A stretch of DNA of 64,000 nt from a bacterium (GTDB taxonomy: Bacteria > Bacillota > Sulfobacillia > UBA995). The translations under genes were made by a program, and so were the position numbers. The stretch lies in NCBI GenBank assembly GCA_031082145.1, contig JAVHLP010000004.1:62001-126000 (forward strand), read 5' to 3'. Shown one piece after another: positions 31,380 through 40,520 of this stretch. How positions within the stretch are numbered: the first letter of the stretch is position 1; the number at the start of each line of letters is the position of its first letter. Under the pieces are notes generated by a model. It was given only the letters and a program-made list of their open reading frames with translations, searched no databases and was not told the DNA's origin.

Positions 31380-32075
31380 ATGCTCCGTTTCCGGCGCTGG
31401 CTGGCCCGGCGGCGCCAGGCGGCGCGCTGGCGCCGGTCTGCCCCCCCACTCCCGCCCCGGGGTTCCCTGGGGCCAGCGGTACTGGCCCTTCTGGTGCTCG
31501 TCACGGCTTCTCTCCTACTCCTGGAATGGAGCATCCGGCCGACCCTGGTCCTCCTGGCGGAGGCCCGGATCACCAACATCGCCATGGAGGGCATGTACCG
31601 CGTGGTGCAGAAGCGGGCAGCCACCCTCTCCTACCGTGAACTCATCCACCTGGAGAAGGACGACCGCGGGCGCATCACCATGATGCAGCCCAACACGACC
31701 GCCATCAACGAACTGGCGGCCTCCACCACCCTGGCCATCCAGCAGGAACTGGCGGAACTCAGCGAGTCCAGCGTCGGCATTCCGCTGGGCCAGGTCATGG
31801 GGAGTAAGATCTTCGCCAACTACGGCCCCCGAATTCCCGTGCAACTCACCCCCACCGCCGTCCCCGTGGTCCAGGTGCGCGACGCCATGGAGGCCGCCGG
31901 CATCAACCAGACCAAGCACACCCTGTATGTGGAGGTCGCCGTGACCATGAAGGTGGTCATGCCGCTCCTCTGCACCTCGGTGGAACTGCACAACAGCTTC
32001 CCCGTGGCCCAGACGGTGCTCCTGGGCGAGGTACCCCAGACCTACCTGAACCTGGACCTCTCCGGCTTCCGGTAG
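31380..32075 (+). CDS. yunB: Sporulation protein YunB
   Basis: A 231-residue protein with a basic N-terminus, one membrane helix (about 35-55) and the conserved YunB body: RITNIAMEGMYRVV, MQPNTTAINELAAST, GIPLGQVMGSKIFANYGP and VEVAVTMKVVMPL. YunB is made in the mother cell in Bacillus and is needed for efficient spore formation. ATG after GGGGCGGAGG. Its 3' end overlaps the convergent P-type ATPase gene by 34 bp. Confidence 0.9.
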   Translation: MLRFRRWLARRRQAARWRRSAPPLPPRGSLGPAVLALLVLVTASLLLLEWSIRPTLVLLAEARITNIAMEGMYRVVQKRAATLSYRELIHLEKDDRGRITMMQPNTTAINELAASTTLAIQQELAELSESSVGIPLGQVMGSKIFANYGPRIPVQLTPTAVPVVQVRDAMEAAGINQTKHTLYVEVAVTMKVVMPLLCTSVELHNSFPVAQTVLLGEVPQTYLNLDLSGFR

Positions 32076-34732
32076 CGGGACCGGCCTCCGTACAGGAGGG
32101 CCCGCCTCAGCCCCACCAGGATCTGGCCGAGGGCCGCCGCCACCAGTACCACCGGCCACTCCTCGATTCCCAGGGGGTGGGTGCGGAAGACCGGTTGCAG
32201 GGCTGGCAGGTAGATCACGGCCGCCAGCATCAGACCGGAGCAGAGGACCGCCCCTACCAGGTAGGGGTTGGCCAGGAGGCCCATCTCAAAGACCGAGCGG
32301 CGCTCTGAGCGGCAGTCGAACGCGTGGAAGAGCTGGGCCAGAACCAGGGTGGCAAGGCACAGTGTGCGGGCCAGCGGCAGGTTCTCGGGATGGGCCCACC
32401 GTCCCCACAGGAACACGCCCAGTGAGGAGAGACCGATCAGGAGACCCCGGCCGGCGATCTTGATCCCCAGGCGGTTCGCGAACACGCTCTCGCCCGGAGG
32501 ACGGGGGGGCCGTCCGGTCACGTCCTCCCCCGGGGCTCCCAGTCCCAGGGCGATGGCCGGCAAGCCGTCGGTGGCCAGGTTGACCCAGAGGATCTGAACC
32601 GGCAGGAGGGGAAGGGGCTGGCGGAGGACGGCTCCCAGCAACATCACCAGGATCTCACCGATGTTACAGGATAGCAGGTAGCGGACAAACTTGCGGATGT
32701 TGTCGTAGATGCCCCGCCCCTCCACGATCGCCGCCACGATGCTGGCAAAGTTGTCGTCCCCCAACACCATGTCGGCCGCTTCCCGGGTCACGTCGGTCCC
32801 CGTCTGCCCCATGGCGACGCCGATGTCCGCTTCCCGGAGGGCGGGCGCGTCGTTCACGCCGTCACCGGTCATGGCCACCACCTGGCTGCGGGAGCGCAGG
32901 GCGCGGACGATCTGGAGCTTGTGGGCGGGCGACACCCGGGCGAAGATGGAAGTCCGGCGCACCGCCCGGACCAGTTCCCGTTCGTCCATCCGGTCCAGTT
33001 GATCACCGGTCAGCACCGGGTCCTCCTCGCCCAGGAGGCCCAGTTCCCGGCCAATGGCCCGCGCGGTGGCCGGGTGATCGCCGGTCACCATGATGGGCCG
33101 GATGCCGGCCCGGCGGCAAACCCGGAGGGCGGCGAAGACCTCCTTCCGGGGAGGGTCGGACAGCCCGGCCAGGGCGAGGAAGCACAATTCCCGTTCCAGC
33201 CGGCCGGGGTCACCGGTCGGCGGAGGGAGGACCGGCAAGGGGCGATAGGCCAGGGCCAGCACCCTGAGCCCACGGCCCGCCAGTTCTTCGTTGTGGCCGA
33301 GGATCTGCTCCCGGGCACCCTCGCCCAGCGGGATCCGCCGATCCCCTCGCTGGTAGCTGGAGCAGAGGTGTAACACGGTGTCGGCAGCCCCCTTGGTCAG
33401 GAGCAGGCCCCCGCCCGGCCGCCCGACCAGCGAGGCCAGGACGCCCAGATCTTCGACACTGTGCAGGGTAGACATACGGCGGCGCTCAGGCTCGAAAGGG
33501 AACTCGGCCCGCCGGGGATATGCCCGCTCGAGCCGCTCCCGGGTGAGACCCTCGGCGGCGGCCGCTACCACCAGGGCCGCCTCGGTGGGGTCCCCCTCGG
33601 CCCGCCGGAGATCGGAATCCAGGCGGGCGTTTGAGCACAGCAACCCCACCGCCAGGGTCACCGGCCCCCAGGGGTGGAGTTCACGTAAGGCCATCTCGTT
33701 CTCGGTGAGGGTACCCGTCTTGTCGGCGCAGATCACGGTGGCGCAACCCAGGGTTTCCACCGCCGGCAGGCGGCGGACGATGGCCTGGCGGCGGGCCATC
33801 CGTTGCACCCCCACCGCCAGGGCAATGGTGACCACGGCCGGCAGGCCTTCGGGGATGGCCGCTACCGCCAGGCTGACCCCGGCCAGGAACATCTCGGCGA
33901 ACGGCTCACCCCGACTGAGCCCGGCCAGGACCACCAGCACGCACACCAGCAGGCAGGCTGCCACCAGCAGGCGGCCCAGTTCATGCAAGCGGCGTTCCAG
34001 GGGAGTGGCCTCGGGGGGGCGGGTGCCCAGCATCCCGGCGATTTGGCCCAGTTCGGTGTCCATGCCGGTGGCCACCACCACGCCCCGCCCCGTCCCCCGG
34101 GTTACGGTGGTGGACGTGAAGAGAAGGTTGGACCGGTCGCCGAGGGGAATCGTGGGGCCCAGGGCGACATCCGCCCGTTTCTCGACCGGCAGCGATTCAC
34201 CGGTCAGCGGCGACTCGTCGGCTTCCAGGGCCGAGGCTTTCACCAGCCGGAGATCGGCGGGCACGCGATCGCCGGCTTCCAGCAGGACGATGTCGCCGGG
34301 CACCAGATCGCCGGCCGGCACCCGTTCCACCCGGCCGGCCCGTACGACCCGGGCGGTGGGAGCGGTCAGATCCTTCAGGGCTTGAAGGGCCCGCTCGGCG
34401 CGGTAGTTCTGGAACGTCCCCAGAACTGCATTGAGGACCACAATGGCCAGGATGGTCAGGCAGTCGGCCAGTTCGCCGAGGGCCAGCGAGATGAACGCCG
34501 CCGCCACCAGTATCAGTACCATAAAGTTGGCGAACTGGGCGGCGAAGGCCGCCAGCAGCCCGGGGGGGCGGTCCCCGTCCAGACTGTTGGGCCCGTGGTG
34601 GAGCGCTCGTTCGCCGGCCGCCTTGGGGGAGAGTCCCCGCCCGGGGTCGGAGCCAAGCCGGGCCAGGGTCTCCTCGGTCGACAGGGCGTGCCAGGGTTGG
34701 CGAAGGGGAGGACCCTGGGAGGGCAACGGCAC
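32042..34732 (-). CDS. Calcium-type cation-transporting P-type ATPase
   Basis: An 896-residue P2A-like pump. It has an N-terminal cation ATPase domain (STEETLARLG), the actuator motif LTGES, M4 sequence IPEGLPAVV typical of Ca2+ pumps, phosphorylation motif CADKTGTLT, the nucleotide-binding domain, and the hinge MTGDGVNDAPAL, with about ten membrane helices. Likely exports Ca2+ or Mn2+; ion choice is inferred from M4. GTG start after CGAGGAGG. Divergent from the CadC-like gene. Confidence 0.9.
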   Translation of the reverse strand: MPLPSQGPPLRQPWHALSTEETLARLGSDPGRGLSPKAAGERALHHGPNSLDGDRPPGLLAAFAAQFANFMVLILVAAAFISLALGELADCLTILAIVVLNAVLGTFQNYRAERALQALKDLTAPTARVVRAGRVERVPAGDLVPGDIVLLEAGDRVPADLRLVKASALEADESPLTGESLPVEKRADVALGPTIPLGDRSNLLFTSTTVTRGTGRGVVVATGMDTELGQIAGMLGTRPPEATPLERRLHELGRLLVAACLLVCVLVVLAGLSRGEPFAEMFLAGVSLAVAAIPEGLPAVVTIALAVGVQRMARRQAIVRRLPAVETLGCATVICADKTGTLTENEMALRELHPWGPVTLAVGLLCSNARLDSDLRRAEGDPTEAALVVAAAAEGLTRERLERAYPRRAEFPFEPERRRMSTLHSVEDLGVLASLVGRPGGGLLLTKGAADTVLHLCSSYQRGDRRIPLGEGAREQILGHNEELAGRGLRVLALAYRPLPVLPPPTGDPGRLERELCFLALAGLSDPPRKEVFAALRVCRRAGIRPIMVTGDHPATARAIGRELGLLGEEDPVLTGDQLDRMDERELVRAVRRTSIFARVSPAHKLQIVRALRSRSQVVAMTGDGVNDAPALREADIGVAMGQTGTDVTREAADMVLGDDNFASIVAAIVEGRGIYDNIRKFVRYLLSCNIGEILVMLLGAVLRQPLPLLPVQILWVNLATDGLPAIALGLGAPGEDVTGRPPRPPGESVFANRLGIKIAGRGLLIGLSSLGVFLWGRWAHPENLPLARTLCLATLVLAQLFHAFDCRSERRSVFEMGLLANPYLVGAVLCSGLMLAAVIYLPALQPVFRTHPLGIEEWPVVLVAAALGQILVGLRRALLYGGRSRYRKPERSRFR

Positions 34733-34790
34733 CCGACCTCCTCGCGACCGGTAAACTCTATGCCGACCGCCGCGCGACCATTCAAGCAGC

Positions 34791-34844
34791 TTGACGGGGG
34801 GGGTGCCGGGTGGGTTATGTTACATTTGAACAAATGTGCAAATG
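34791..34844 (+). promoter_or_regulatory. Promoter and ArsR/CadC-type operator
   Basis: TTGACG (34791) and TATGTT (34816) form a promoter with a rather long 19-bp spacer. Directly downstream is the perfect palindrome CATTTG-AA-CAAATG (34823-34836) and a third CAAATG half-site (34839-34844). The arrangement fits repression by the ArsR/SmtB-family protein encoded next, released on metal binding. Confidence 0.75.
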
Positions 34845-34855
34845 AGGGGATGCCG

Positions 34856-35215
34856 GTGAGCGCGCATTGTGACGAGTTCGCCTTCGACCCCGAGCGGGTC
34901 GCCCGCGTAAGATCGAAGACGCTTGGCCTGCCACGCGAGGTTGCCGACCTCTTCAAGGCCCTCGGCGACTACACCCGCGCTCACCTGGCCTACGCCCTTG
35001 CTCACGAGGAACTCTGCGTGTGCGACCTGGCGGTCCTGGTGGGCCTGAGCGTGTCCTGTGTCTCGCACCATCTTCGATTACTGCGCGCCATGGGACTTGT
35101 CAAGCACCGGCGGTCCGGCCGGCAGGTTTTCTACCGCCTGGACGACGAGCACGTCCACGGCATCCTGCGGGAAGGCCTGGAGCATGTCCGCCACCGGCGG
35201 GAGGGAGGCCGGTGA
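34856..35215 (+). CDS. CadC-like ArsR/SmtB-family metal-responsive repressor
   Basis: A 119-residue winged-helix repressor. ELCVCDLAVLVG carries the alpha-3 Cys-x-Cys-Asp metal site of CadC, and an N-terminal Cys (SAHCDEF) may be the third thiolate, pointing to Cd, Pb or Zn. The recognition helix region reads SVSCVSHHLRLLR, then GLVKHRRSGRQVFY. GTG at 34856 is chosen because GAGGGG lies six bases upstream; ATG at 34850 would leave no spacing. The stop overlaps the GTG of the metal pump gene. Confidence 0.87.
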   Translation: MSAHCDEFAFDPERVARVRSKTLGLPREVADLFKALGDYTRAHLAYALAHEELCVCDLAVLVGLSVSCVSHHLRLLRAMGLVKHRRSGRQVFYRLDDEHVHGILREGLEHVRHRREGGR

Positions 35216-37161
35216 ACACCTGCCCCGGGTGCTCCGGCGCCAGGAACGCCCACCACGTCACCGTCCTCGCCGCCCTGTTGCTGGCGGCCGGTCTGATCAC
35301 ACCCTGGCTGGGTTTCGGCGTGGTCTCCGCCGAGGTCTGGTATGCGCTCTCCATGCTGGTGGCGGGAAGCCGCGTGTTCCCCCGCGGCCTGGCCGCGGCT
35401 TGGCGGCGGCGGCTGGACATCAACACCCTGGTGACGTCGGCGACGGTCGGGGCGGTGGCCATCGGGCAGTGGCAGGAGGGCGCCGTCGTGGTCCTGCTGT
35501 TCTGCCTGGGCGAGACCCTGGAGGCGGCCAGCCTGGAACGGACGCGCCGCTCGCTGCGGGGCCTGCTTGACCTGGCCCCCCGCCAGGCCACGGCCTGGCG
35601 GCAGGGATGTTTCGGGCCGGTTCCGGTGGACCAGGTGGAGGTGGGGGACCGGATCCTGGTGCGACCGGGTGAACGGGTGCCCGTGGACGGCCAGGTGGTG
35701 ACCGGTCACTCGTGGCTCGACGCGTCGCCTATCACCGGCGAGCCGCTGCCGTTGGCGGCCGGCCCGGGCACGCAGGTCCACGCCGGGACGCTGAACCAGG
35801 ACGGGGCCCTGGAGGTGGTGGCCACTTCGGCCGCCCGCGAGACCACCCTGGCCCGCATCATCCACCTGGTGGAGCGGGCACAGAGCGAGAAGGCTCCCGT
35901 GCAGCGGCTGGTTGATCGCTTCGCCGCCTGGTATACCCCTTTGGTGCTGGGTCTGGCGGCGGCGGCGGCCCTCTTGCCGCCGCTGCTGTTGGGCGCCCCG
36001 GTCGGCCCCTGGCTCTACCGCGCCCTGGCTTTCCTGCTCCTGGCCTGCCCTTGCGCCCTGGTGATCGCCACCCCGGTGGCAGTGGTTACCGCCATCGGCC
36101 AGGCCGCCCGTCACGGGGTGCTGATCAAGGGCGGCCGGTCGCTTGAAGCCCTGGGCAGCCTGCGAGCGGTTGTCCTGGACAAGACGGGCACCATCACCGA
36201 AGGGAGGCCTGTCGTGGCGGATGTGATCCCCGCCCCCGGCTGGAACCGGCGCCAGGTTCTCGAACTGGCGGCGGCAGTCGAGGCCGGCTCCGAGCATCCG
36301 CTGGGGGCGGCCATCCGGCGGGCGGCAGTTGACGAAGGCATCACGACACCGGTTGCCGCGGACTTCCTGACCCTGCCGGGACGGGGGATTCGAGCCTCTG
36401 TGGGCGGGCGGGACGTCTGGGTGGGCCGGCCCCGGCCGGCGGCGGGAGCGGGCTCTTGGCCGGAGGCCGCCGGCGGGCTGACCGCCGTTGTGGTCGAGGC
36501 GGACGGGCGGCCGGCGGGCCGGGTGACCTTCCGGGATCGGGTACGGGCGGAGGCCCGGGAGGCGGTGGCAGCCTTGCGCGGGCAGGGGATCCGCCGGGTG
36601 GAGGTTCTCTCCGGCGACGCGCCGGCGGCGACGGCGGAGGCGGCCGCGGCAGCCGGCGCCGACACTTTCCAGGGCGGGCTGCTGCCCGAAGACAAGGCCG
36701 GCCGCGTGAGCGAACTGGCCGCCCTGTCCGGCGGCGTGGCCATGGTGGGGGATGGCATCAACGACGCCCCGGCCCTGGCGGCGGCCACGGTGGGCATCGC
36801 CATGGGCGGGGGCGGGACCGACGTGGCCCTGGAGACGGCGGGCGTTGCCCTCATCCGGCCCGACCTGGGGCGGGTGGCCTATGCCGTCGAGCTCGGCCGG
36901 CGGGCCCGCCGGGTGATAGCCGAGAACGTGGTACTGGCCGTCGGGATCAAGCTCGCCCTGCTCTTGCTGGCCATTCCCGGCCGCTTGACCTTGTGGCTGG
37001 CCGTGTTGGGCGACTCCGGTACGGCCTTGCTGGTCATCATGAACTCCCTGCGGCTGCGGCAGGAGGCCGTGAGCCCGGTGCGGAAGTCTGCGGCCGGCCT
37101 GGACCGGTCAGGCTGCTGCTCCCACGGCCGGGAAGCGGGGCGGGCGGCCGGGCTCACGTAG
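35212..37161 (+). CDS. CadA/ZntA-type heavy-metal P-type ATPase
   Basis: A 649-residue P1B pump: SPITGEPLP actuator motif, membrane metal site CPCALVIATP, phosphorylation motif LDKTGTITEG, HP motif GSEHPLGAA and hinge MVGDGINDAPAL. It lacks an N-terminal heavy-metal-associated domain; only a short CPGC precedes the helices. The C-terminus has a SGCCSHGRE tail that might bind metal. Coupled to the CadC-like repressor by a GTGA overlap, so the pair is a metal-induced efflux unit for Cd/Zn/Pb. Confidence 0.9.
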   Translation: MNTCPGCSGARNAHHVTVLAALLLAAGLITPWLGFGVVSAEVWYALSMLVAGSRVFPRGLAAAWRRRLDINTLVTSATVGAVAIGQWQEGAVVVLLFCLGETLEAASLERTRRSLRGLLDLAPRQATAWRQGCFGPVPVDQVEVGDRILVRPGERVPVDGQVVTGHSWLDASPITGEPLPLAAGPGTQVHAGTLNQDGALEVVATSAARETTLARIIHLVERAQSEKAPVQRLVDRFAAWYTPLVLGLAAAAALLPPLLLGAPVGPWLYRALAFLLLACPCALVIATPVAVVTAIGQAARHGVLIKGGRSLEALGSLRAVVLDKTGTITEGRPVVADVIPAPGWNRRQVLELAAAVEAGSEHPLGAAIRRAAVDEGITTPVAADFLTLPGRGIRASVGGRDVWVGRPRPAAGAGSWPEAAGGLTAVVVEADGRPAGRVTFRDRVRAEAREAVAALRGQGIRRVEVLSGDAPAATAEAAAAAGADTFQGGLLPEDKAGRVSELAALSGGVAMVGDGINDAPALAAATVGIAMGGGGTDVALETAGVALIRPDLGRVAYAVELGRRARRVIAENVVLAVGIKLALLLLAIPGRLTLWLAVLGDSGTALLVIMNSLRLRQEAVSPVRKSAAGLDRSGCCSHGREAGRAAGLT

Positions 37162-37181
37162 GGGCGGGAGGAGTGATTGAC

Positions 37182-37919
37182 GTGGCCGAGGGGTTTGACG
37201 CCGCCCGGGCGGCGATCCGGTTGGCCGGGTGGATGCGGCGGCGGGTGCGGGCAGCAGGGGCTAGGGGCTTGGTCTTCGGGATCAGCGGCGGGGTGGATTC
37301 AGCGGTGGTGGCAGCTCTGGCCCGCCGAGCTTGCCCGGGAAACCTGCTCGGACTGTTCTTGCCTTGTGACAGCGACCCGATCGACGAGCGGATGGCCGGA
37401 CTGGTGGCCCGGAGCCTGGACATCCCGATGCGTACGGTGGACCTCAGTCCCGCCTACCGGGCCCTTCTGGCGGGCGCCGAAGTCGTGGCCGGCGACGGCG
37501 ACCCGCCGCTGGCCCGGGCCAACCTGAAAGCGAGGCTCCGGATGGCCACCTGGTATTACTACGCCAACCGCCTGGATTACCTGGTGGCGGGTGGCGGCAA
37601 CCGCAGCGAGCTGGAGGTGGGCTACTTCACCAAGTACGGCGACGGCGGCGTGGATCTCTTGCCCCTCGCCGGGCTGGTCAAAGGCCAGGTCTACGAGCTG
37701 GCAGCCCACCTTGGAGTGCCGGCGGACGTCCTCCGGCGACCGCCCACCGCCGGCCTCTGGCCGGGCCAGACCGATGAAGCGGAGCTAGGCCTGACCTACG
37801 CCGACCTCGACACTTACCTGCTCACGGGTCGGGGCCCGGCCGGCGTCGCCGGGCGGGTGGAGGCCATGCGGCACCGGTCTCGGCACAAGCGGCGGGCCCC
37901 GGCCCGCCCCCGGCCCTGA
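37182..37919 (+). CDS. nadE: NAD+ synthase (ammonia-type)
   Basis: About 245 residues with the ATP pyrophosphatase P-loop GISGGVDSAVVAAL (about 28-41) and the NadE blocks ARANLKARLRM, GGGNRSELEVGYFTKYGDGG and PTAGLWPGQTDEAELG. It makes NAD+ from nicotinate adenine dinucleotide and NH3; no glutaminase domain is fused. GTG at 37182 is best placed relative to GGGAGGAG; GTG at 37173 is an alternative. Confidence 0.92.
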   Translation: MAEGFDAARAAIRLAGWMRRRVRAAGARGLVFGISGGVDSAVVAALARRACPGNLLGLFLPCDSDPIDERMAGLVARSLDIPMRTVDLSPAYRALLAGAEVVAGDGDPPLARANLKARLRMATWYYYANRLDYLVAGGGNRSELEVGYFTKYGDGGVDLLPLAGLVKGQVYELAAHLGVPADVLRRPPTAGLWPGQTDEAELGLTYADLDTYLLTGRGPAGVAGRVEAMRHRSRHKRRAPARPRP

Positions 37920-37998: not shown

Positions 37999-39756
37999 AT
38001 GCTGACACGGCTGGTAGTCCGCAACTTCAAACGTTTCCGAGAACTGGACGTGGAACTGGGAAACCCAGTGGTCTTTGTTGGCCCGAACAACTCCGGTAAG
38101 ACTACAGTCCTCCAGGCTTTGGCCCTATGGGACATCGGGGTAAAGCGCTGGGTGGAGAAGCGGGGCGAAAAGCCGCCAGAGAAGCGGCCTGGAGTGACCA
38201 TCAACCGGCGTGACCTGATCGCGCTGCCCGTTCCCGAGAACAACCTTCTGTGGCGCGATCTCCACGTGCGGGCCGCCCACCGAGCTGCCGGGGGGCTGCG
38301 GACCGAGAACGTGCGGATGGACATTCTGGTGGAAGGAGTATCGGCGCAGCAGCCATGGGAGTGCGGCCTGGAGTTTGACTACGCGAACGAAGAATCCCTC
38401 TACTGCCGACCTCTACGGACGGGAGCAGGCGCTGCTCGCATGACCGTTCCCGCCCCAGCTCCGGCAGTCCGAATCGCATATCTTACTCCCATGTCCGGCT
38501 TGGCGGCCCAGGAAGATCGCCTTGACCCAGGGGCCGTCAGCGTACGCATCGGCGAGGGCAGAACGGCGGAGGTGCTCCGCAACCTGTGCTATCGCCTCCT
38601 CGAGAAGGATGGGGGGATCGCTTGGGGCAAGGTCAGGGATAAGATAGCTGCCCTGTTCTTCGGAGTTCAACTGGAGGAACCGACCTACGTGCCTGAACGC
38701 GGTCAGATAACCATGGCGTATCGTGAGAGAAAGCCGGACGGGCGCGACATACGGATGGACCTGTCTTCGGCGGGGCGGGGCATGCAGCAGACCCTCCTCC
38801 TGCTCGCCTTCTTGTACAGCAACAGGGGGGCTGTCCTGCTGGTTGATGAGCCCGATGCCCACCTGGAATTCCTTCGCCAGCAGCAGATATACCAGGTCTT
38901 AACGGACGTCGGGCGCGAACAAGACAACCAGATCATCATCGCCAGTCACTCTGAGGTGGTTCTGCGCGAGGCAATGGATCGCGATGTGGTGATCTCGTTG
39001 GTGGGACGGCGACCCCATCGGATCGACAACCGAGCGAGCAGCCAACTGGCCAAGGCGCTGAAAGAGATCGCCGGCGAGGACTACTTCCGAGCTGAGCAGA
39101 GAGGTTGGGGTCTCTACCTCGAGGGACCAACTGACCTGGCAATCCTCCGCGCGTTGGCCCGCAGGCTTGAGCACCCAGCAATGACGCACTTGGAGTCGCC
39201 GTTCGTCCACTACTCAGGCAACGACGTCCAGAAGGCCCGAGCCCACTTCTTTGGCCTTCGGGAGGCCAAGGAAGACCTTGTCGGTATCGCTGTCTTTGAC
39301 CGGAACCCGGGATTTGTAGCTCACCCTGAAACGCCACTTCGGGAGATCACCTGGCAACGGCGTGAGATCGAGAACTACCTCTGCCACCGGGGAGTTCTGC
39401 TGTCCTACGCTCGGAGCGCAGTGCCTAGGAACGACGGGCCTTTGTTTGACGTGTCGGAAGAACTACGCCGGCAGGAGATAATGGAGAAATGCATAGAAGA
39501 GATCGAGGGAGCCTTGGCCACCTTGGGCAAGCCTTCTCCCTGGGGTCCTGATATCAAGGCGAGTGACGAGTTCTTGGCCCCGGTGTTCGACAAGTTCTAC
39601 GAGCGTCTCGGCCTACCCAATCTCATGCGCAAGACGAATTACCACACCTTGGCTGAGCACCTCCCGAGGGAAGCGATTGACCCGGAAGTCATGATGGTGC
39701 TCGATGCTATCGCCCAAGTCGGGGCGTCATCAATTCCCGCTCAGGACACTATCTGA
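37999..39756 (+). CDS. AAA15/OLD-like ATPase with C-terminal TOPRIM-like region
   Basis: A 585-residue protein. Its N-terminal ABC/SMC-like ATPase starts MLTRLVVRNFKRF and has Walker A GPNNSGKTT, signature-like LSSAGRGMQQTLLLLAF, Walker B VLLVDEPDAHLEF and IIIASHSEVVL. After residue 360, LYLEGPTDLAILRALARRL, GIAVFDRN and QRREIENYL resemble a TOPRIM/DUF4435-type nuclease region, although the usual DxD reads DRN. Such ATPase-TOPRIM proteins include OLD nucleases and PARIS (AriA/AriB) anti-phage proteins. It stands alone between nadE and yebC, with lower GC than neighbours, suggesting a transferred gene. Function inferred. Confidence 0.8.
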   Translation: MLTRLVVRNFKRFRELDVELGNPVVFVGPNNSGKTTVLQALALWDIGVKRWVEKRGEKPPEKRPGVTINRRDLIALPVPENNLLWRDLHVRAAHRAAGGLRTENVRMDILVEGVSAQQPWECGLEFDYANEESLYCRPLRTGAGAARMTVPAPAPAVRIAYLTPMSGLAAQEDRLDPGAVSVRIGEGRTAEVLRNLCYRLLEKDGGIAWGKVRDKIAALFFGVQLEEPTYVPERGQITMAYRERKPDGRDIRMDLSSAGRGMQQTLLLLAFLYSNRGAVLLVDEPDAHLEFLRQQQIYQVLTDVGREQDNQIIIASHSEVVLREAMDRDVVISLVGRRPHRIDNRASSQLAKALKEIAGEDYFRAEQRGWGLYLEGPTDLAILRALARRLEHPAMTHLESPFVHYSGNDVQKARAHFFGLREAKEDLVGIAVFDRNPGFVAHPETPLREITWQRREIENYLCHRGVLLSYARSAVPRNDGPLFDVSEELRRQEIMEKCIEEIEGALATLGKPSPWGPDIKASDEFLAPVFDKFYERLGLPNLMRKTNYHTLAEHLPREAIDPEVMMVLDAIAQVGASSIPAQDTI

Positions 39757-39776: not shown

Positions 39777-40520
39777 GTGGCCGGTCACTCCAAGTGGGCT
39801 AACATCAAACGGCGCAAGGCGCAGGTGGACGACCAGAAGGGTCGGGTCTTCTCGCGGATCTCCCGCGAGTTGAGCGTCGCCGCCCGTCAGGGCGGCTGCA
39901 ATCCCGAGGCCAACCCCCGGCTGCGGGAGGCCATGCGGAAGGCCCGAGAGGCCAACCTGCCGGCTGAGAACGTGCAGCGGGCCATCCTCAAGGGAGCCGG
40001 CGAGCTTGAGGGAATGGAGTTCGAGGAGATCCTGTACGAGGGATACGGCCCCGGGGGAGTCGCCATCCTGGTCGAGATCGTCACCGACAACCGCCGTCGC
40101 ACGGCCGCGGCCATCCGGCATCTTTTCGCCAAGTACGGGGGGAGTCTGGGCGAGGCCGGCTGCGTGGCCTGGATGTTTGAGAAGAAGGGGGTCGTACTGG
40201 TGGCTCCTGAAGCGGACGAGGACGAGGTGCTGGCCACTGCCCTGGAGGCGGGAGCGGAGGACTTCTCCCGGGAGGCCGGCGCCGCCTACGAGATAACGTC
40301 CGACGCCCAGGGCCACGAGGCGGTGCGTTCGGCCCTGGAAGCGGCCGGCCTTCCGGTGGCCGAGGCCGAACTCACCATGGTGCCCCGCTCTACCATCAGG
40401 GTGGAAGAGCCGGACGCTTCCCGTGCCCTGGAGTTGCTGCTGGCCCTGGACGACCACGAGGACGTGCAACGGGTGCACGCCAACCTGGGTACGGATGACC
40501 GGCGGGCGGGGACCGGCTAG
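39777..40520 (+). CDS. yebC: YebC/PmpR-family protein
   Basis: A 247-residue YebC/TACO1 protein beginning AGHSKWANIKRRKAQVD. The hallmark RISRELSVAARQGG and EGYGPGGVAILVE blocks are present. Members act as DNA-binding regulators or as factors that relieve ribosome stalling at proline runs. GTG start after GGGTGGGAGAG. In many Firmicutes yebC precedes ruvC; here folT, an unknown gene and bofC lie between. Confidence 0.95.
   Translation: MAGHSKWANIKRRKAQVDDQKGRVFSRISRELSVAARQGGCNPEANPRLREAMRKAREANLPAENVQRAILKGAGELEGMEFEEILYEGYGPGGVAILVEIVTDNRRRTAAAIRHLFAKYGGSLGEAGCVAWMFEKKGVVLVAPEADEDEVLATALEAGAEDFSREAGAAYEITSDAQGHEAVRSALEAAGLPVAEAELTMVPRSTIRVEEPDASRALELLLALDDHEDVQRVHANLGTDDRRAGTG

Follow-up and report, generated by a model that had tools for sequence, protein, structure and literature searches.

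The window analysed here, a stretch of 64,000 nucleotides in its full length, contains an intact open reading frame between nadE and a yebC-type gene (Table 1). As read from the window sequence, this frame starts with an ATG, preceded by a plausible candidate ribosome-binding site (GGGGAGG). It begins 79 bases after the nadE stop codon and ends 20 bases before the GTG of yebC, and the three genes share one direction. The homologue of nadE in a second genome of the same family, G001, matches Pfam NAD_synthase (4.5e-71). As an earlier note on this DNA had pointed out, the frame has a lower GC content than its surroundings (0.605 versus 0.687 for the window), and its GC3 is 0.715 versus 0.855 for yebC. 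This low GC is common to both genomes that carry the gene at the nadE-yebC site, that of the window and G001. On the other side of nadE, a gene of about 270 aa resembling an adenine-nucleotide alpha hydrolase (LarE-like by eye) lies immediately 5′ in G001–G003; it is absent from the window, where a metal-ATPase gene is directly followed by nadE (37161-37180). Beside the nadE operon, region 32042-37161 carries a pair of oppositely oriented P-type ATPase genes and, between them, an ArsR-type regulator frame, as judged by eye from the translations.

Table 1. Features of the nadE-yebC region and of the protein encoded between the two genes (positions in the window)
Feature	Position	Strand	Evidence or remark
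nadE (NAD synthase), upstream neighbour	37180..37919, start approximate	+	67.5% identity to G001 homologue
Whole gene: ABC/OLD-type ATPase and C-terminal TOPRIM (predicted), 585 aa	37999..39756	+	Pfam, AlphaFold2, Foldseek
ATPase domain, residues 1-357	37999..39069	+	Pfam AAA_21/AAA_15 in 77/77 members; fold matches
Walker A GPNNSGKTT, residues 28-36	38080..38106	+	G28, N30, G33, K34 in 80/80
ABC-signature-like SSAGRG, residues 256-261	38764..38781	+	G259, G261 in 80/80; S256 in 77/80
Walker B and D-loop LLVDEPDAHLE, residues 280-290	38836..38868	+	D283, E284, H288 in 80/80
H-loop histidine H317	38947..38949	+	80/80
TOPRIM domain (predicted), residues 358-585	39070..39753	+	AlphaFold2 and structure comparison
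TOPRIM E-x3-D motif EGPTD (E375, D379)	39121..39135	+	E375 in 80/80, D379 in 78/80
DRN (D434-R435-N436), degenerate DxD	39298..39306	+	D434 in 80/80; residue 436 acidic in 0/80
EIENYL	39364..39381	+	E456 in 79/80, E458 in 78/80, N459 in 77/80, Y460 in 80/80
yebC-type gene, downstream neighbour	39777..40520	+	Directly after nadE in seven related genomes without the frame

Presence and absence of the gene were compared at the level of the family and above, the genus of the window being represented by one genome. Two of the four genomes of the family carry it, both in the order nadE-X-yebC, and the protein of G001 is 69% identical to that of the window. In the other two (G002 and G003, from a third genus), nadE is directly followed by yebC, as it is outside the family in G150, G152, G004, G005 and G010. 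Since the two genes are adjacent in all these genomes, the frame was gained by insertion, the simplest scenario being a single event ahead of the split between the two genera. Loss instead of gain was ruled out by the five outgroup genomes. A housekeeping stretch is thus interrupted here, as proposed earlier, and conservation throughout the group, which had been raised as a possible objection, is not what we found: carriers amount to 7 of the 154 genomes of the class, and the site is empty in relatives. Between the window and G001, the identity of the encoded protein is comparable to that of NadE (67.5%) and lower than that of YebC (75.5%), and the differences within the gene are concentrated at third codon positions. 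From these comparisons, the gene has been kept by selection since its insertion, with a divergence like that of its neighbours. The C-terminus diverges faster than the rest of the protein (56% versus 78% identity).

Scanning each species through a single genome recovered relatives at 241 loci. The best 80 of the 241 share 53–69% identity with the window protein along practically the full length, measure 562–602 aa with the exception of one shortened copy of 262 aa, and come from about 17 named phyla; all were found in metagenome-assembled genomes, several on multi-megabase contigs. Identity was not tied to relatedness: apart from the genus of the same family, other members of the class stand at 55–61%, like those of other phyla. 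On the family tree the phylum label changes 35 times; the lowest possible number is 17, and shuffled labels gave 53 on average. We read this pattern as repeated transfer with some local inheritance, the count being merely indicative because bins can mislabel contigs. Shortened members (an open frame of just 262 aa at L048, 10001-10789, and L121 in G140, which matches residues 1-222 alone) indicate that the gene can decay. A deeper sister group is represented by L122 in G072 (G072:C137:13619-15343), a protein of 575 aa with 34–37% identity over the full length. G072 carries one gene from each group.

The Pfam scan of the window protein retrieved AAA_21 (2.3e-19) and AAA_15 (5.9e-18), with 66–71 bits for cut-offs of 32.1 and 27, and no match in the C-terminal third. 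The AAA15/OLD-like ATPase recognized in the earlier note is therefore well founded: the set of ABC ATPase motifs (Walker A, Walker B, D-loop and H-loop) is complete, with K34, D283, E284, H288 and H317 present in all 80 relatives, and the fold of residues 1-358 matches the heads of SMC, Rad50 and PtuA (Z 18–21). The whole protein, modelled by AlphaFold2 with 77 family members, reached a pLDDT of 91 and a pTM of 0.81. Foldseek with this full-length model gave TsOLD, PtuA and GajA as top matches, TsOLD being the best.

Modelled alone, the C-terminal 228 residues gave a pLDDT of 96.2 and a pTM of 0.91, and the TOPRIM fold previously suspected for this region was indeed predicted. The best match among solved structures was AriB of PARIS (8ux9_A, Z 10.1 over 192 residues, rmsd 5.0), and the second was again PARIS AriB (8v46_D, Z 9.4). 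TOPRIM domains of Class 2 OLD came next (BpOLD, Z 8.3; XccOLD, Z 7.7–7.9), followed by retron Eco8 (Z 7.2), TsOLD and retron Eco2 (both 6.8) and GajA (6.4), in a background where unrelated folds mostly scored Z 4–5. Foldseek alone also placed AriB first (E 0.004). According to these models, the C-terminus is a TOPRIM domain with AriB as its nearest relative, by a modest margin. Fold comparison alone was informative here: the C-terminal profile found no match among the sequences of solved structures, and a fold search of the viral library returned none either.

The three motifs noticed earlier in this region, LYLEGPTD (372-379), VFDRN (432-436) and REIENYL (455-461), are present, with their key residues kept in 77–80 of the 80 relatives. 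The conservation of E375, D434, D379, E456, E458, N459 and Y460 is far beyond chance. OLD nucleases coordinate metal A through E400/D455/D457 (Bp) or E377/D431/D433 (Ts), and the ligands of metal B are E404/T506/E508 (Bp) or D381/S478/E480 (Ts) (PMC6755086, PMC7049728). By analogy, E375 would be the metal A glutamate and D379 a metal B acid, and the acids of EIENYL are probably metal B acids as well; these correspondences follow the order of motifs and not superposed coordinates. E458 matches the glutamate of the OLD T/S-x-E motif. If E456-I-E458 is aligned in this way, S478 corresponds to E456, a position occupied by E in nearly all members versus T or S in OLD; its counterpart in the DUF4435 proteins examined is C, T or D.

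The metal A triad (the catalytic E and D-x-D) is incomplete in the family, where E375 and D434 are invariant and the second D is found in none of the 80 relatives. Position 436 is occupied by L in 60/80 and I in 9/80, never by an acid, and by N in the window protein. Of the unusual DRN previously put forward as a replacement of DxD, the absence of the second aspartate thus holds throughout, while the asparagine is not a family feature; as a special motif, DRN was ruled out, being private to the window protein among the 80 relatives. With regard to the Class 1 OLD ligand set of Ts (E377/D431/D433 and D381/S478/E480), which every Class 1 homologue conserves, the family has no equivalent of D433 and carries E456 in place of S478. 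The sister protein L122 (34% identity) keeps D-R-D together with W-G-R-Y-E-I-E-N-Y-L-L, and two AriAB-like proteins display D-R-D with W-P-R-Y-C-I-E-N-Y-L-L (L124) and D-K-D with W-D-R-R-C-L-E-N-Y-L-L (L144). The L122 group is thus a full-length homologue with E-I-E-N-Y-L in which the canonical DRD is retained. On the simplest reading, the ancestor of the family would have been AriAB-like and its site canonical, and one metal A acid would since have been lost. As the second DxD aspartate of BpOLD merely holds metal-bound waters and single ligand mutants stay active (PMC6755086, PMC7049728), nuclease activity is plausible by analogy. Nevertheless, none of the members has this acid, which could leave the site with weak catalysis or none.

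PADLOC gave weak matches of the window protein to many ABC-ATPase defence proteins, and the fused AriAB model (274-465, E 2.7e-17) was the only one, among the matches listed, to span the C-terminal TOPRIM motifs. In hhalign comparisons, the family aligned to one fused AriAB with an E value of 1.8e-6 and a probability of 89.7 over 241 columns (columns 211-463), through IENYL. The alignment to P2 Old (E 1.1e-3) ended after E-G-x-T, and that to YbjD covered the Walker A region only. BLASTP of L122 against fused AriAB gave an E value of 3e-9, and L122 appears to bridge the family and fused AriAB. These alignments speak for the fused AriAB-like protein envisaged in the earlier note, but the DUF4435 cut-off was not reached: Pfam DUF4435 (PF14491) was absent from the window protein (E up to 1) and from the 25 families listed for 77 members; a control AriAB matched it with 31 bits. 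PARIS being defined by DUF4435 above 27 bits (PMC9122126), formal membership was ruled out although the ATPase agrees with the definition, and the family is PARIS-like, not a PARIS member by current definitions. The C-terminal profile matched four DUF4435 proteins with a probability of 3%, which is not significant, so that sequence alone is no proof of AriB kinship. Single-gene AriAB fusions have already been reported (PMC9122126), and a review asks if they form their own class (PMC10568477). Eleven clades of the OLD tree were uncharacterised before a recent study (PMC12796447), and the family may lie inside one of them.

Fused AriAB (Class 4 OLD; AriA ABC ATPase and AriB DUF4435/TOPRIM) presents the same two domains in the same order on one chain, and it shares with the family the motifs E-G-x-x-D, D-(R/K) and W-x-R-x-x-(I/L)-E-N-Y-L, the last as seen in L124 and L144. 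Unlike fused AriAB, the family lacks the second DxD acid and has gained a glutamate two residues before that of ENY; it is also shorter (about 580 aa versus 694 positions in the PADLOC AriAB model). GajA of Gabija (Class 2) and the retron Eco8 OLD (Class 3) share the domain architecture and overall fold, but their TOPRIM domains are less similar than that of AriB. Gabija itself was ruled out, the neighbours being nadE and yebC with no GajB, and no helicase partner recurring in relatives. A retron Class 3 OLD was ruled out likewise, as no reverse transcriptase or retron adjoins the frame and none occurs among the listed neighbour families of relatives.

In relatives, a fixed partner gene was sought among the neighbours and the commonest cluster occurred at 6 of about 76 loci, which agrees with the absence of a partner gene claimed earlier. 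In the window genome the gene lies within a housekeeping operon and has no defence neighbour. Elsewhere, type I/III restriction and methylase genes flank or directly adjoin some members. ResIII was found in 11 of 79 adjacent same-strand genes, compared to at most 1 of 79 genes located more than 6.5 kb away on the same contigs (Fisher p about 0.005, taking the distant count as 1, since distant ResIII was not among the families found at least twice). The other families among these 79 genes include N6_N4_Mtase (5), SNF2 (4), DUF1156 (4), Methylase_S (3) and NOV_C (3), so that ResIII is present in about one seventh of the adjacent same-strand genes, and restriction-like genes of all sorts make up about one third at most. 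The gene may be placed between a DNA methylase and a ResIII helicase (L074), have a ResIII helicase directly downstream and a DNA methylase upstream (L024), or precede a type I HsdR by two genes (L019); in other cases the neighbour is a ResIII enzyme with an endonuclease domain (L059) or an SNF2/NOV_C helicase of the Hma/DISARM sort (L010). PADLOC run on the neighbourhoods of relatives returned restriction, Hma and DISARM-like matches. Members L010, L021, L035, L041 and L057 have large helicases and another recurring large protein in their vicinity, the family gene sitting between the two in L021 and L041; some of these large proteins match PADLOC Hma (helicase-methylase-ATPase), a candidate system.

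Relatives were also found on two IMG/VR phage contigs, one at 59% identity beside portal, head-tail joining and methylase genes (L093), the other at 52% identity near tail proteins and a methylase (L094). Both phages encode a DNA methyltransferase within a few kb of the family gene. Searches of phage records gave no match and those of plasmid records only ATPase-level matches, and no relatives were recovered from viral contigs with fused AriAB or AriB as queries.

Taken together, these results lead us to infer a defence function. We consider it fairly probable that the gene moves horizontally and by itself encodes an OLD/PARIS-type protein directed against phages or mobile elements, which would act by abortive infection through its TOPRIM nuclease. 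In PARIS, AriB is set free when the ATPase binds acidic anti-restriction proteins, and it then cuts tRNA-Lys (PMC11455837, PMC12409363). In the present protein, infection would be sensed by an ABC-type ATPase head that is probably a dimer or oligomer and that, in the untriggered state, would keep the C-terminal TOPRIM nuclease inactive in cis. Upon triggering, the nuclease would become free to cut nucleic acid and the infected cell would be stopped. In contrast to AriB, whose nuclease is described as being freed, the two domains are covalently joined here, which makes release impossible without proteolysis; activation would therefore probably take place by a change of shape or oligomeric state. 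By analogy, tRNA would be the favoured substrate and DNA the alternative, since AriB cuts tRNA and P2 Old has been reported to do so (cited in PMC13261556). As to the trigger, our favoured guess is that phages counter restriction or that the restriction machinery is damaged. The proximity to restriction genes, a feature shared with PARIS like the nearest TOPRIM fold, suggests a possible guard role. In a survey of BREX, OLD-ABC/TOPRIM modules figure as suicidal effectors that serve as a backup and are recruited next to restriction-like systems (PMC12839542).

The same domains could also belong to a plain Class 1 OLD nuclease, like P2 Old, V. cholerae OLD or YbjD, which would act on DNA or tRNA with RecBCD-type sensing and no special link to PARIS. 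A single gene without partner, an N-terminal ABC ATPase followed by a C-terminal TOPRIM in a chain of similar length, carriage by phages as for P2 old, and TsOLD as best full-length Foldseek match are all shared with this class (P2 Old, Thermus scotoductus OLD, E. coli YbjD). However, the C-terminus is closer to AriB than to OLD TOPRIM domains (Z 10.1 versus 8.3), and the profile match to fused AriAB is longer and better than that to P2 Old. In addition, Class 1 enzymes retain S-x-E and the two acids of DxD, whereas the family shows a metal A triad changed from E/D/D to E/D/L (N in the window protein) and a metal B motif changed from S-x-E to E-x-E. Finally, members often adjoin restriction genes while Class 1 OLD are described as not being near defence genes (PMC10568477), and we regard this assignment as unlikely. 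Somewhat harder to credit is a dead or regulatory TOPRIM, with the ATPase as the toxic or sensing part and a C-terminus merely binding nucleic acid or a partner. It would explain the universal absence of the second DxD acid and the faster C-terminal divergence between the two genera, and the TOPRIM domain of YbjD is dispensable for its defence (PMC13261556). The seven residues of the site are nevertheless maintained across about 17 phyla with an extra acid fixed at position 456, and the behaviour of BpOLD ligand mutants argues in the same direction.

A housekeeping role, whether in DNA repair, in the cell cycle or NAD-related, for a gene that resembles OLD by chance appears very improbable. 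The stable nadE-yebC position in two genera and the purifying selection would fit such a role; the gene having stayed within a housekeeping operon since the ancestor of these genera also weighs against defence, and the archaeal OLD relative Cran1 functions in the cell cycle instead of defence (PMC12796447). But the gene was not found in 147 of 154 genomes of the class, nor in sister-genus genomes whose nadE-yebC is intact, its neighbours differ almost everywhere, phage genomes carry it, and shortened copies exist (L048, L121). The housekeeping explanation is thus already largely refuted.

More tentatively, and with considerable doubt, the anti-phage reading may be extended to a pan-bacterial one-gene 'restriction guard', an AriAB-like sensor that would move about as a single gene, settle next to type I and III restriction systems and abort infection when phages disable restriction. 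Its TOPRIM site would be a rebuilt one, with the second D of DxD lost and a glutamate of the metal B site (E-x-E-N-Y) taking over, and activation would occur in place, the nuclease not being released. The family is not a new kind of system; what sets it apart is a uniform, unusual change of the active site together with a wide distribution. PARIS and OLD searches by DUF4435 or by a canonical DxD would miss or mislabel it, though it is intact across about 17 phyla. If defensive, it would be unusual for its compactness and would allow two questions to be put to the test, the switching of an AriB-like nuclease unable to leave its own ATPase and the number of acids that a TOPRIM nuclease needs. 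Its location beside or between restriction genes would also provide a genomic argument for PARIS-like proteins watching restriction systems. Outside the metal site, H416, W452, W515 and K545 are invariant or nearly so, and are candidates for substrate contacts or a catalytic lysine.
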